Shown here: one piece after another, positions 34,947 to 59,200 of the stretch
Layout of the letters: the number at the start of each line of letters is the position of its first letter
Position numbering within the stretch: the first letter of the stretch is position 1
Source: an uncultured Bacteroidales bacterium
GTDB lineage: Bacteria; Bacteroidota; Bacteroidia; Bacteroidales; FEN-979
NCBI GenBank assembly: GCA_903875045.1
Contig: CAIQUS010000007.1
Location: 1 to 59,200 of the forward strand
Length of the DNA stretch: 59,200 nt
Reading direction: 5' to 3'
The notes under the pieces: model-generated
What the model saw: only the letters and a program-made list of their open reading frames with translations
Database searches by the model: none
What the model was told of the DNA's origin: nothing
Position numbers and translations under genes: made by a program

Positions 34947-35070
34947 GCACCTCAACCCCCGGCCCCTGCAATAAAAGGCACCTCAACCCCTGGCCCCTGC
35001 AATAAAAGGCACCTCAACCCCCGGCCCCTTCAATAAAAGGCACCTCAACCCCCGGCCCCTTCTCCTCAAG
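34947..35070. repeat. 31-bp direct repeat, four copies
   Basis: Four tandem copies start at 34947, 34978, 35009 and 35040, each beginning GCACCTCAACCCC and joined by AATAAAAG. The last copy runs into the hairpin at 35056-35079. The unit contains one half of the DUF559 flanking repeat, suggesting stepwise duplication of that end. Confidence 0.92.
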
Positions 35071-35566
35071 GAGAAGGGGAGGTGGGGCGGTTCAGGGTTA
35101 TTGTAAAGGAAATAATTTCCTTGAGCACTGTTTCAAGGTTTTGCATGATTTGCTCGTTACTGAACCTGATGATGGTTATTCCCAGGCGGTCGAGTTCCGC
35201 TGAACGGTTTTCGTCGTGTTCCTTCACCAGTGGATTGTTATGGATACCGCCGTCAACCTCGATGATCAGGTGTTTTTCATGACAATAAAAATCAGCAATA
35301 TACAGGTGAACCGGATGTTGTCGTCGAAATTTCAATCCGTTCAATTTGCGATTTTTTAGTTGGAACCAAAGTGTGTTTTCAGCCTCTGTCATTTTATGAC
35401 GCAAAGCCTTAGCCCTTTGAAAAATCTCTTCTCCTGCTTCAAGATGCAGTAAAAACTCTCTTGATTTGCCTAAATATGCCATACCGTTTCAATTTTCAAC
35501 GTTGTTTCGATCCCACCTCCCCTTCTCCTTGAGGAAAAGGGGTCGGGGGTTGAGGTGCTTTTTATG
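35034..35566. mobile_element. Inverted-repeat cassette carrying a DUF559 gene
   Basis: The left end (35034-35086) and right end (35514-35566) are near-perfect reverse complements of about 50 bp. Each consists of CACCTCAACCCCCG followed by a hairpin: CCCCTTCTCC-TCAA-GGAGAAGGGG at 35056-35079 on the left, and a version with one mismatch at 35519-35542 on the right. They enclose only the DUF559 gene. The DUF559 stop codon lies in the loop of the left hairpin, so the last residues of the protein (NRPTSPSP) come from the repeat. Together this looks like a small transposable or mobilisable unit. No target duplication or transposase is visible. Confidence 0.6.
35066..35482 (-). CDS. DUF559 (Vsr-like endonuclease fold) protein
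   Basis: A 138-residue protein of the DUF559 family: AKALRHKMTEAENTLWFQL, LKFRRQHPVHLYIADFYC, LIIEVDGGIH, then RSAELDRLGITIIRFSNEQI. The ADFYC/IEVDGG residues (Asp, Glu, Asp) match the PD-(D/E)XK-like active site of Vsr-type nucleases, so it may cut or nick DNA. The family is common but its biological role is not established. It is enclosed by inverted repeats and its C-terminus is encoded by one of them. It is isolated from its neighbours and has no partner methylase. Confidence 0.9.
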   Translation of the reverse strand: MAYLGKSREFLLHLEAGEEIFQRAKALRHKMTEAENTLWFQLKNRKLNGLKFRRQHPVHLYIADFYCHEKHLIIEVDGGIHNNPLVKEHDENRSAELDRLGITIIRFSNEQIMQNLETVLKEIISFTITLNRPTSPSP

Positions 35567-35603
35567 AAGGGGGTTGAAGGTTGAGATGCTTATCCCAGAA
35601 GTA

Positions 35604-36530
35604 CTACACCTCCCGTGAAAAACGTAAAAACACACCCAGCGGGAGTTTTCGGGCGGCACGATCAGGAAAGAAGAACTCCCCTGACTGAAGGTTTTGGATG
35701 TCGCCGAAGCGGGTTTTGACAAGGTTTTCGGGAATCAGGGACGAAAATCCCATGGAATATAAACTGAGTACGAAAAATCCGTGTCCGGGGTCGAGCAATT
35801 GTTTGCAGATGGCAATGATTTCGTCGATGGAATCTTCCAGAATCCATTTCTCCCCGTCAGGACCTCTTCCATAAGCAGGAGGATCAAGGATGATTCCATC
35901 GTAAATATTGCCCCGCTTCACTTCCCGGCGAACAAAATTCATGGCATCTTCGACCACCCACCGGATATTGTCGAGACTGCTGGCCTCCATCATCTCTTTG
36001 GCCCATGTAATCACCTGTTTTACCGAATCCACATGCACAACATCCGCCCCGGCGGCTTTTGCTGCCAGGGAGGCACCTCCGGTGTAAGCAAAAAGGTTTA
36101 AGACTCGTGACGGGGCAGGGGATGATTTTTGATTTTTGATTTTTGATTTTTGATTAACCAGATCGTAAATATAATTCCAGTTAATGGCTTGCTCAGGGAA
36201 TACGCCGATGTGGCCAAAAGCGGTTAAACCAAGCCTGAAGTTCAGTTTCATCTGTTTGTATTTGTATCCGATGATCCATTGATCGGGCATTTTTGGCTTT
36301 TTGGTCCATGATCCACGTTCGTAGTCATCACCGGCTGTTTTTTTGCCTTTCATGCGTACATAGCGGGCGTGTGAAATTTTTTCCCATTCGCTTTCAGGCA
36401 ACGATTTCTGCCACACAGCTTGTGGTTCCGGACGTATAAGGATATATTTTCCAAACCGTTCCAGCTTTTCACGGTTGCCGGTATCGATCAGTTCATATTC
36501 GGTCCAGTCGGGAGAGGTGAGGATTTCCAT
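35604..36530 (-). CDS. Class I SAM-dependent rRNA methyltransferase (RlmI-like)
   Basis: A 308-residue protein. The N-terminal region (about 1-100) is the small beta domain of this group (LIRPEPQAVWQKSLPESEW). The Rossmann methyltransferase domain begins VLNLFAYTGGASLAAKAAGA (motif I), then VVHVDSVKQVITWA, MNFVRREVKRG, and the DPPAYGRGPDGEKW catalytic loop. Members methylate 23S rRNA cytosine or related targets; the exact site is not inferable. A 7-bp repeat tract (36124-36155) encodes NQKSKIKNQKS between the two domains. The start was chosen at MEILTSPDW. It precedes the SNF2 gene's end by 84 bp. Confidence 0.85.
   Translation of the reverse strand: MEILTSPDWTEYELIDTGNREKLERFGKYILIRPEPQAVWQKSLPESEWEKISHARYVRMKGKKTAGDDYERGSWTKKPKMPDQWIIGYKYKQMKLNFRLGLTAFGHIGVFPEQAINWNYIYDLVNQKSKIKNQKSSPAPSRVLNLFAYTGGASLAAKAAGADVVHVDSVKQVITWAKEMMEASSLDNIRWVVEDAMNFVRREVKRGNIYDGIILDPPAYGRGPDGEKWILEDSIDEIIAICKQLLDPGHGFFVLSLYSMGFSSLIPENLVKTRFGDIQNLQSGEFFFPDRAARKLPLGVFLRFSREV
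36124..36155. repeat. 7-bp tandem repeat (GATTTTT) in methyltransferase gene
   Basis: Four copies of GATTTTT plus a partial unit lie inside the methyltransferase gene, encoding a Lys/Asn/Gln/Ser tract (NQKSKIKNQKS). A change of one unit would shift the frame. A related GTTAAGT tract lies at 36538-36565, just upstream of the start. Confidence 0.9.
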
Positions 36531-49669: not shown

Positions 49670-49790
49670 CATCGGGGGCCCCACCCAGGTACCACCAGGT
49701 GGACACCGGGCCCCCCCGGGTACCACCCGGTAGCCATCGGAACCCCACCTTGTAAGGTGGGGCTGCGGAACCCCACCTTGTAAGGTGGGG
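49670..49790. repeat. Cluster of palindromes between convergent genes
   Basis: A GC-rich stretch with CCACCAGGTGG and CCGGGTACCACCCGG units, then two copies of the palindrome CCCCACCTTGTAAGGTGGGG (49743-49762 and 49771-49790). The second directly abuts the TAG of the pseudouridine synthase gene. Confidence 0.85.
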
Positions 49791-50666
49791 CTACTTGTAC
49801 TTCTCGTCGGCTGGCTTTAGTTCAAGGAACCCCTTGGGCATCTTGCTTTTGAAGTCGATGAGTTTTCCGGTAACGGGATGACGGATAGAAAGATAGAAGG
49901 CATGTAACCTAATCCGGCGTTCGAAGGTGGCATCTGCACCGTAACGACGATCACCAACCACCGGACACTGCATCTCCGACAAATGAACCCTGATCTGGTT
50001 TTTGCGGCCGGTTTCCAATTCAACCTCCAGAAGTGCATAATCGGGGGTGCGGTCCATCACCCGGTAATGGGTTATTCCCAGTTTGGCTCCTTCCTCTACC
50101 TTCACGGAATACACCCGCTGATCATGACCTTCCACCAACCAGCTCCGAATGGTTCCCTTGTCCTCTTTTGGTTGTCCCTCTACCAATGCGTAATACAACT
50201 TCTTCGTGTCCATCCAATGGTTTTTGATCTCCTCCTGCAGTTTCTCACTCTTGGCGAAAAGCAGGATTCCGGAAACCTCCCGGTCGAGCCGGTGAACCAC
50301 AAACAAACGCTCTTTCCCTTTCGAATTTTCCTTGACATAAGCCGCCATCTGCTGGTAAAAAGAGGTACCCCCGAGCCCACGGTCGCCGATGGTAAGCAAT
50401 CCGGCCGGTTTTACCGCCACCAGTATGGCATTATCCTCATAAAGTACCTGGTAGGGAGGTTTAACTTTATTAATCTTCACCGCCTGCTTCACATATTCAA
50501 CAGCATCGCCTGCCTTTAGCATCACCGCCGGATTGGTTACCATTTTGCCGTTCACACGCACATTGCCATGCACGATTTTGTTCTTCACGGTTGTTTTTGA
50601 AGCCGATTGAAGCTCCGCCAGCAAATGCTCCAGCAGGGAGGTCTCTTTTGTTATTTTTACTTTCAT
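49791..50666 (-). CDS. RluA-family pseudouridine synthase
   Basis: A 291-residue cytosolic protein. Residues about 10-65 are an S4 RNA-binding domain (VKNKIVHGNVRVNGKMV). The catalytic domain contains HRLDREVSGILLFAKS with the catalytic Asp, plus LETGRKNQIRVHLSEM and the closing LHAFYLSIRHPVTGK. It isomerises uridine to pseudouridine in 23S rRNA or tRNA; the specific site is not inferable. It converges on the SpoU-type gene, with palindromes between. A short tandem repeat lies just upstream. Confidence 0.92.
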   Translation of the reverse strand: MKVKITKETSLLEHLLAELQSASKTTVKNKIVHGNVRVNGKMVTNPAVMLKAGDAVEYVKQAVKINKVKPPYQVLYEDNAILVAVKPAGLLTIGDRGLGGTSFYQQMAAYVKENSKGKERLFVVHRLDREVSGILLFAKSEKLQEEIKNHWMDTKKLYYALVEGQPKEDKGTIRSWLVEGHDQRVYSVKVEEGAKLGITHYRVMDRTPDYALLEVELETGRKNQIRVHLSEMQCPVVGDRRYGADATFERRIRLHAFYLSIRHPVTGKLIDFKSKMPKGFLELKPADEKYK

Positions 50667-55997: not shown

Positions 55998-57221
55998 TTA
56001 TTCCGTTAAAAACAACTCAGATGTGATCATGTCGGCAAAGAGCTTTCCTTCATCGGTGAGGAAATAGACACCGGATGTTTCAGAGAGAAGACCGCGTTTA
56101 AGAAAGACCGAGGCGCGGTTGAGGAAGTAGTTGGAAATTGGAAATTGGAAATTGGAAATTATTTGTTCCAGGCTGCATCCACGGATTGTTCGCAGAGAGG
56201 TCATCACATATTCGTTGTATTTCTGGGCGGGGGTTAAGATCTCTTCTTCAAAAAGGCAATCACCCTTTGCCAACCTTGTGATATATTCAGAGAGGTTCGC
56301 AACATTCCATCGCCGGGAAGAACCATTGAAATTGTGAGCCGACGGACCCAGTCCCAGATAAGGAACACCGTTCCAGTAATTGGTGTTGTGGATGGCATGG
56401 TGGCCGGGTTTGCAGAAGTTTGAGATTTCATATTGCAGAAAACCTTGTTCCTTCGTTTTATTGATCAGCATTTTGTATTGCTCCACCTGGGATTCATCGT
56501 TAACGGGTTCCGATTTTTGCCTGTCGATCATCCAGGCCAGAGGGGTTTTTGGTTCGACGGTAAGCGAATATGCCGAAATATGAGGTACATTCAACGAAAA
56601 AGCAATTTCAAGATTCTCCTGCCACCGGGCCGGGGTGGAGGATGGAATTCCGTAAATCAGGTCGATGCTGATGTTTTCATATCCTGCATTATGTAACAAT
56701 TTTACGGCGTTCAAGGCTTGTGCCGCTGAATGTGACCTGTTCAGGGAGATGAGATCCTCCTCAAAGAACGACTGCACTCCCAGGCTGAACCTGTTGAACC
56801 AGGTATCCTTCAGTTCCTCAACATATTCCTCCGTCACATCCTCCGGGTTCAACTCTATTGTTATTTCTTTATCAATCGCCGAAAAGATTCTCCCCTCTCC
56901 CCGGGGAGAGGGGTCAGGGGGTGAGGGGTTTTTGATGCAGTCGGGAGAGGGGTCAGGGGGTGAGGGGTTTTTGATGCTGTCAGGAGAATCTATCCCCGCC
57001 ATCACCTCCTGCAACTCCGCTGGCCTGTAAACCGAAGGTGTTCCGCCTCCAAAGTAGATGGTATTCACCGGCTCCCCTGCCAGGTAGCCCCGGGTAAGCG
57101 CAATTTCTTTTTTCACAGCATCTAAAAACGGCTCCTTCAGTTTTTGAGAAGCCAGCGAAAAGAAGTTACAATAATGGCATTTTCGCCTGCAAAAGGGAAT
57201 ATGGATATAGATTCCGGACAA
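55998..57221 (-). CDS. hemW: Radical SAM protein HemW (heme chaperone), with repeat insertions
   Basis: A 407-residue protein of the HemN/HemW family. The radical-SAM cysteines are C11, C15 and C18 in FCRRKCHYC, followed by NTIYFGGGTPSVY and IELNPEDVTEEY and a C-terminal HemN-type domain (MTSLRTIRGCSLEQ). HemW delivers heme to respiratory enzymes rather than oxidising coproporphyrinogen; the lack of an extra N-terminal region with CX3CX2CX(1)C favours HemW. An in-frame insert from about residue 80 to 115 repeats DSIKNPSPPDPSP, encoded by a GC-rich palindromic repeat (56890-56990). A second repeat tract (56131-56158) lies near the 3' end. It is 4 bp after the upstream kinase. Confidence 0.85.
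   Translation of the reverse strand: MSGIYIHIPFCRRKCHYCNFFSLASQKLKEPFLDAVKKEIALTRGYLAGEPVNTIYFGGGTPSVYRPAELQEVMAGIDSPDSIKNPSPPDPSPDCIKNPSPPDPSPRGEGRIFSAIDKEITIELNPEDVTEEYVEELKDTWFNRFSLGVQSFFEEDLISLNRSHSAAQALNAVKLLHNAGYENISIDLIYGIPSSTPARWQENLEIAFSLNVPHISAYSLTVEPKTPLAWMIDRQKSEPVNDESQVEQYKMLINKTKEQGFLQYEISNFCKPGHHAIHNTNYWNGVPYLGLGPSAHNFNGSSRRWNVANLSEYITRLAKGDCLFEEEILTPAQKYNEYVMTSLRTIRGCSLEQIISNFQFPISNYFLNRASVFLKRGLLSETSGVYFLTDEGKLFADMITSELFLTE
56131..56158. repeat. 7-bp tandem repeat (TTGGAAA) in hemW
   Basis: Four copies of TTGGAAA lie within the hemW coding region, encoding ISNFQFPISN. The same unit, in the same coding phase, occurs in the A2M gene 32 kb away (24408-24446). Confidence 0.9.
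56890..56990. repeat. GC-rich palindromic repeat inserted in hemW
   Basis: A 22-bp perfect palindrome (CCCCTCTCCCC and its complement, 56892-56913) overlaps two copies of a 39-bp direct repeat (starting 56906 and 56945) with the core GAGAGGGGTCAGGGGGTGAG. It is in frame and encodes two 13-residue repeats. The consensus (CCTCACCCCCTGACCCCTCTCC on the other strand) resembles the DUF559 cassette ends. Confidence 0.88.
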
Positions 57222-58725: not shown

Positions 58726-58832
58726 TTGCTAAATTGGGTATAAAAATCTGTTGAACAATTTTATCAGTATGTTTATCCCTGTTTAATAAAAAATGTCACC
58801 CCTTCGGGGTTTATTATCAGGATCTGCGTTTG
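58726..58832. other. Short spacer with a CCCCTTCGGGG hairpin
   Basis: Spacer upstream of the kinase gene and before the tandem array; a CACCCCTTCGGGGT stem-loop (58797-58810) resembles the CCCTTCGGG core of the following repeats and may be a degenerate first copy. No gene is visible. Confidence 0.5.
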
Positions 58833-59200
58833 TTTTTCTACAATCATATCAGCCCTTCGGGCTTTGTTTTCGTGTTCAGCACGGGTTTTTCTACAATCAT
58901 ATCAGCCCTTCGGGTTTTGTTTCCGTGTTCAGCACGGGTTTTTCTACAATTATATCAGCCCTTCGGGTTTTGTTTCCGTGTTCAGCACTGGTTTTTCTAC
59001 AATTATATCAGCCCTTCGGGCTTTGTTTTCGTGTTCAGCACTGGTTTTTCTACAATTATATCAGCCCTTCGGGTTTTGTTTCCGTGTTCAGCACTGGTTT
59101 TTCTACAATCATATCAGCCCTTCGGGTTTTGTTTCCGTGTTCAGCACTGGTTTTTCTACAATCATATCAGCCCTTCGGGCTTTGTTTCCGTGTTCAGCAC
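58833..59200. repeat. 53-bp tandem repeat array, at least seven copies
   Basis: Copies start at 58833, 58886, 58939, 58992, 59045, 59098 and 59151; the last is cut by the window edge. Each contains TTTTTCTACAAT, the hairpin core CAGCCCTTCGGG and a GTGTTCAGCAC end. The period is exactly 53 bp, with a few variable sites (CAT/TAT, GGGC/GGGT, TTTTC/TTTCC, ACGGG/ACTGG) whose combinations differ between copies. No unique spacers and no cas genes are present, so it is not a CRISPR array. Confidence 0.95.

Follow-up and report, generated by a model that had tools for sequence, protein, structure and literature searches.

The window, that is, the whole stretch of 59,200 nucleotides that was analysed, contains a compact cassette in which a gene for a DUF559 protein is enclosed by two arms that are inverted copies of each other (Table 1). 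The open reading frame matches PF04480 (E 7.9e-37; the corresponding COG is presumably COG2852), and it is the sole gene between the arms, as the initial annotation had noted. Each arm consists of an unpaired head of the CACCTCAACCCCCGG type followed by a hairpin, the stem of which has 10 pairs in the left arm, one of them being broken in the right arm, and both arms fall within a larger inverted repeat (78 nt, 86%). The intertwining of gene and repeat that had been described at the outset is borne out: the stop codon (35066-35068) lies within the TCAA hairpin loop of the left arm, and the C-terminal residues SPSP of the protein are encoded by this arm. Four 31-bp half-arm copies had been counted in front of this arm; there are indeed four heads in total, but only three of them are extra, the final one being the head of the left arm itself. 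The half-arms of the array each carry an identical, locus-specific linker of the AATAAAAGG type. The 20-nt arm head occurs five times in the window, versus 0.00 expected from 100 dinucleotide shuffles. The folding of the left arm beats 200 of 200 shuffles (z -3.4); that of the right arm is unremarkable (z -1.3, with 21 of 200 shuffles equally good). The scanned neighbours of the cassette encode a peptidase S46 and a SAM-dependent methyltransferase that matches PF10672.

Table 1. Coordinates of the DUF559 cassette and its repeats in the window
Feature	Position	Strand	Description
Core element: arm, DUF559 gene and inverted arm	35041..35557	.	517 bp; arms from repeat search
DUF559 nuclease gene	35066..35482	-	138 aa; starts with ATG; stop codon within the loop of a hairpin
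Left arm	35041..35086	+	46 nt; head CACCTCAACCCCCGG, hairpin CCCCTTCTCC-TCAA-GGAGAAGGGG, inner AGGTGGG
Right arm	35512..35557	-	46 nt; structure of the left arm with two changes, one breaking a stem pair
Tandem half-arm array	34947..35060	+	period 31 bp; Tandem Repeats Finder 3.7 copies, 96%
Additional, degenerate half-arm beyond the right arm	35566..35589	-	GCATCTCAACCTTCAACCCCCTTC; outer part of the inverted repeat

Three further repeats of the window were recorded: a 39-bp repeat in two copies (56904-56987) with the related sequence GGGAGAGGGGTCAGGGGGTGAGGGG, which is probably another member of the palindrome family; a 28-bp palindromic unit in exact double copy, CGGAACCCCACCTTGTAAGGTGGGGCTG (49738-49792), which is unlike the cassette arms; and a 53-bp tandem repeat with seven copies (58832-59200), which reaches the contig end and may explain why the contig stops there.

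The sole protein of the cassette was initially proposed to be a Vsr-like nuclease, and the fold comparison agrees, grouping it with the homing endonuclease I-Bth0305I and Vsr, so that it has the catalytic fold of a homing endonuclease family. Its conserved residues D64, E75 and D77 are candidates for the catalytic site. The accompanying statement that DUF559 has no established role is outdated, since the Caulobacter DUF559 protein VsrA is reported, in the available part of the source, to cause an SOS response in cells that lack a cytosine methyltransferase (PMC12907096). A literature search, which largely did not cover subscription papers and is thus weak as a negative, retrieved nothing that links DUF559 to such repeats among the matches listed.

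The arms are not confined to the cassette. A search of the host genome (6.0 Mb in 253 contigs) that allowed up to three mismatches yielded 61 arm matches, versus none for the reversed control, and nearly all of them lack a nuclease gene. Only two DUF559 copies were found, that of the window and one on contig C27, which has kept the arms and both gene ends and has lost its middle by deletion. The 30 arm loci that were fetched, out of the 61 matches, represent 23 distinct sites, or possibly one fewer, as the sites on C149 and C189 may be one site counted twice; these two lie on short contigs and have a common upstream flank, indicating that the region is duplicated or that the bin mixes variants of the strain (L011 and L017). 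At 14 of the 23 sites the arms form inverted doublets with the partner head at 75-76 nt (13 of the units are 75 nt long), and thus the genome contains dispersed head-plus-hairpin repeats in inverted doublets, as is typical of REPs. The tetranucleotides GTAG and CGTC of the REP superfamilies were not seen on the cassette heads that were inspected by eye (up to 14 nt). A consensus-like 75-nt unit is predicted to fold into a clover in which a stem closes off a pair of hairpins (z -5.0). Only one of the 23 sites falls within an open frame that is 150 aa or longer; measured on mechanically called frames, the median distance of the units to facing 3' ends is 9 nt (16 cases) and to facing 5' ends 86.5 nt (26 cases), a bias to which selection at promoters could contribute. 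Tandem half-arms are present at 13 of the 23 sites. Their linkers differ among the window array, L019, L010 and L012, and the arrays look as if the head, one stem strand and the adjacent DNA had been multiplied locally, on the hairpin's outer side.

The association of the gene with inverted arms recurs in other genomes. PF04480 is present in 49 of 100 genomes, the own genome included, and 70 distinct domain hits were collected after exclusion of three duplicate loci and of frames longer than 600 aa; 66 of the 70 are full, 54 of these with sufficient flanking sequence. With the threshold for the inverted repeat set at 35 bits, strong arms surround 34 of these 54 standalone genes and none of 292 control windows (highest control 31.5); 20 of the 54 genes are without strong arms. 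The stop codon lies inside an arm in 15 of the 34 armed genes. Among 39 armed cassettes or fragments, a perfect stem measuring 7 bp or more was found in 33 left and 33 right arms, compared with 16 of 780 shuffled arms, and pairing is kept throughout 13 different left-stem sequences. In named genomes, represented by the best 80 of 573 confirmed loci, a sample that leans toward relatives of the cyanobacterial query, 25 of the 78 hits with enough flank have inverted arms, versus none of 239 controls (highest 29.5), and 53 have no strong arms. The armed hits within these best 80 of 573 loci belong to cyanobacteria, Chloroflexi, Bacteroidota, Planctomycetes, Gammaproteobacteria, Desulfuromonadales and candidate groups; the same sample includes two Methanophagales archaea with DUF559 in HsdR-like frames, for which the arms stay below the threshold (29.5 and 23.8 bits). 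Strong arms are also missing at six of eight loci from a plasmid collection, including both E. coli loci. The divergence of arms and nucleases is correlated across 29 cassettes (Mantel r 0.65, reached in 0 of 2000 permutations), which physical linkage alone would also produce.

In E. coli, the DUF559 gene is ycjD (sapF-ycjD-fabI; L144, L145 and L152), which is also found in K-12. The gene is followed by palindromes of the CCCTCACCCTAACCCTCTCCC type, one of which, by eye, apparently separates its body from what was once a C-terminal segment. At least 80% of a 901-bp ycjD query is covered in 3364 of 5426 E. coli genomes, and parts of it, presumably the palindromes, match a median of four places per genome. 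The locus was discarded as a strain-level test for an empty site, the alternative allele holding efflux genes (four genomes; PMC12817139, as far as the accessible portion of the source goes). Azospirillum copies (L147-L149) are also located among palindromes, and the DUF559 gene of a Sphingomonas plasmid (L151) has carA, GatB-YqeY, dnaG and rpoD in its neighbourhood.

The architecture of the arms and of the 75-nt doublets resembles that of REPINs, and it is conceivable, albeit unlikely, that the arms are REPs moved by a host RAYT, a transposase of the Y1/HUH type, and that the DUF559 gene is a passenger that was caught between two of them. The own genome encodes three Y1 genes of the RAYT type, all of them outside the cassette. 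When genus g8 is left out, the presence of arms in the family tracks Y1, which was found in 25 of 29 genomes with arms and in one of six without (p 0.002, compared with p 0.08 for arms and DUF559). Across all 43 family genomes, the association of arms is significant for DUF559 (p 6e-5) but not for Y1 (p 0.12). Because the outcome flips once g8 is omitted, co-occurrence was rejected as a proof of the mobiliser, and help by a RAYT may be compatible with the counts. Individual genomes depart from either association. Against a RAYT as the mover, four genomes have arms and no detected Y1, three of which have DUF559 (G011 with 6 arms, G015 with 11 and G034 with 4), and nine carry Y1 but lack arms (eight of these belong to g8; G036 has eight Y1 genes). 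DUF559 was not found in four genomes with arms, three genomes have DUF559 and lack these arms, and G021 has eight arms and neither of the two genes was detected in it. It also speaks against a RAYT that other repeats, different from the cassette arms, lie near each of the three own-genome Y1 genes (L062, L063 and L064), and that DUF559 genes between inverted arms are found in other phyla as well.

DUF559 domains are not restricted to small standalone genes. Among the best 80 of the 573 confirmed loci from named genomes, 32 have the domain within a frame of more than 230 aa. Pfam identified the host as HsdR (L167, L170, L173), HsdM or its N6 methylase domain (L178, L184, L194, L199, L204, L208), HsdS (L220), LeuRS (L213, and also L040 and L042 from the relatives), MmeI, type ISP, DUF1156 and other methylases (L160-L163, L176, L219, L239) or an FGE-sulfatase domain (L172); motifs alone pointed to HsdR in L171, L183, L202 and L223 and to LeuRS in L231 and L237. 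Pfam gave only families of the DUF559 type, and no host domain, for L174 and L188, and four candidates (L211, L228, L229, L230) look more like read-through between neighbours than like insertions. Families of inteins were absent from the Pfam results for the insert-bearing frames that were scanned (E up to 0.001).

For three hosts, HsdR, HsdM and LeuRS, the insertion was established by comparison with uninterrupted homologs. In the HsdR of G010 the cassette is situated between ESTLRAAGF and GDRKGGVVWHTQGSGKS, and the HsdR proteins with insert (L240 and L241) were aligned with seven uninterrupted ones (two from within the genus, G001 and G015, and five from G025, G031, G054, G061 and G063). The same G010 protein (L240) has a second insert at residues ~740-781, a gene-less tandem palindrome of ~36 aa, which is absent from the HsdR rows that align there, and the presence of both suggests that one gene was hit more than once. 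Relative to the solved protein 3khk, HsdM L199 likewise contains a gene-less unit (22 aa) in addition to a full cassette, both of them in frame. In G090, related copies (538 bp aligned at 75%) reside in unrelated genes, encoding an HsdR and a DNA methylase. The HsdR inserts of several phyla are near the Walker A motif, which may reflect homing or merely a tolerant loop; a nuclease tree built to follow the entry into HsdR (156 rows, 111 columns) was set aside as poorly resolved, with 6-7 changes needed and two forced by well-supported branches. The LeuRS inserts lie directly before the editing domain (L213 versus a solved LeuRS), at one site in several genera and with weak arms, and on this alignment evidence some insertions are old and inherited. 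The in-frame insertions and the wide taxonomic spread go beyond what the reading of a single window could show.

Similar cassettes occupy different genomic sites. In the window's genus, the cassettes of G010, G011/G006 and G009 have a common block of ~517 bp with 80-91% identity, and at the thresholds used no similarity was detected among their flanks, so that the similarity ends where the cassette ends. A block of similar size (517-524 aligned columns, e.g. positions 790-1306) is common to loci of other species with unlike flanks. A second cassette type (G002, G014, G016) has a common block of ~640-720 bp (84-91%). G006 and G011 are orthologous at the cassette (93-95%, with common flanks); this pair was not retained as a pair of close strains, the CACCTC-type arms that were searched occurring only at the cassettes. 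One G011 pair reflects a segmental duplication. The nuclease has been under purifying selection, with dN/dS values of 0.03-0.29 in 13 of 13 chosen pairs.

Neither of the outcomes that the initial annotation had named as a refutation came about: the arms recur in the genome, and there are orthologous sites that lack the element. The site behind the methyltransferase gene (35604-36530 of the window) was compared in 19 genomes of the genus, all of them draft assemblies of many contigs. A full cassette is present in the window genome (G000) and in G017, a shortened remnant in G018 and a gene-less unit in G003; the contig of G001 ends with the gene and could not be assessed, and 14 of the 19 genomes have no adjacent arm. 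G009, G012 and G016 have an arm ~0.9-1 kb beyond this site. The downstream neighbour in the window is unlike that of most relatives, and G000 and G017 may therefore have one common insertion or two separate ones. On visual inspection of the sequences around L037 and L039, with no nucleotide-exact empty site of a close strain as reference, no target duplication was noticed. On the basis of these sequence comparisons, mobility of the cassette is well supported.

It should be noted that the DUF559 protein could instead be a repair enzyme of the host, as VsrA is, with the palindromes being terminators or mRNA-stabilizing repeats that gathered nearby by chance or selection. The match of its fold to Vsr, the role of VsrA in the DNA-damage response of its host (PMC12907096, in the part of the report that is accessible) and the position of the arms, which abut stop codons, are in accordance with this explanation, which we regard as slightly less probable still than transport by a RAYT. 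It is at odds with the patchy presence of PF04480, with the confinement of similarity between species to the cassette, with the internally deleted cassette copy in the host genome and with the in-frame insertions in unrelated genes. It is highly improbable that the cassette is an ancient locus unable to move, passed on by vertical descent, whose arms were multiplied through slippage and recombination: the tandem arrays with their locus-specific linkers do resemble local amplification and some insertions such as those in LeuRS are inherited, but similar cassettes are found at different genomic sites and orthologous sites, including that in HsdR, are filled in some genomes and empty in others.

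Taken together, the cassette is probably a copy of a REP-like mobile element, the sole protein of which is an endonuclease of the Vsr/EDxHD type (DUF559), and which would spread by break-and-copy. The initial annotation had proposed a self-mobilizing element with the logic of REP/TnpA-REP units and a Vsr-like nuclease; the logic of the element and the kinship of the nuclease have held up, whereas mobilization by the nuclease itself is a matter of inference. According to the mechanism that we infer, DUF559 itself drives the movement: the nuclease would recognize its own arms (head plus hairpin) and nick or cut the DNA at the arms or at the target, and host repair would then copy the element in, in the fashion of homing endonucleases. 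The gene-less 75-nt clover units would be non-autonomous passengers, and insertions would persist at sites where they do no damage, either immediately after a stop codon or, when in frame, in a protein loop that tolerates them. The element is likely to be autonomous. PD-(D/E)XK enzymes hydrolyse DNA and, unlike RAYTs, are not known to rejoin strands, and therefore break-and-copy is preferred over transposition in the manner of RAYTs.

The nearest described systems each have part of these features. REPtrons and REPINs with their RAYT (TnpA-REP) likewise have head-plus-hairpin repeats, inverted doublets with a clover fold, a gene flanked by repeats and many gene-less, mostly intergenic copies, as far as can be taken from the accessible text of two sources (PMC3116915, PMC3733652). 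In contrast, the DUF559 cassette encodes a Vsr-like PD-(D/E)XK nuclease and no Y1/HUH transposase, and cassettes can be present several times per genome and in frame inside genes. The catalytic fold is that of the EDxHD homing endonucleases (I-Bth0305I; PMC3943268), which are compared here together with free-standing homing endonuclease genes. Unlike these, the DUF559 element was observed with neither an intron nor an intein, its 138 aa include no extra DNA-binding region, it has palindromic arms and many sites, and the inserted peptide seems to remain in the host protein. Rickettsia palindromic elements are also palindromic units in frame within unrelated genes, like the gene-less units in HsdM and HsdR; in the available portion of the source they are ~150 bp long and encode a peptide (PMC10969869), whereas the DUF559 element encodes a nuclease and spans several phyla. 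Vsr and VsrA differ in being mismatch-repair enzymes of the host (by prediction in the case of VsrA), and flanking repeats are not mentioned for them in the accessible part of the report (PMC12907096).

The DUF559 element was not filed under REPtrons or insertion sequences because their defining enzyme is absent; DUF559 alone is encoded between the arms, and no transposase of the kind that serves insertion sequences and MITEs. By analogy, the element would work like a functional mixture of a REPtron and a homing endonuclease, and an element of this sort looks to be undescribed. The chances are about evenly balanced that DUF559-REP elements constitute a separate, autonomous class in many bacterial phyla, and perhaps in archaea, with a nuclease that recognizes its own arms, spreads by break-and-copy and also persists as an unspliced in-frame domain in HsdR, HsdM and LeuRS.

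If autonomy is true, the DUF559 element would be a class of its own, and a nuclease of an unrelated fold would be added to the enzymes to which the movement of palindromic repeats is ascribed. A widespread domain without an assigned function thereby gains a testable role, and the proposal accounts for the nuclease domains inside essential and restriction genes and offers a possible origin for the CCTCACCCC-type palindromes that are scattered in these genomes.
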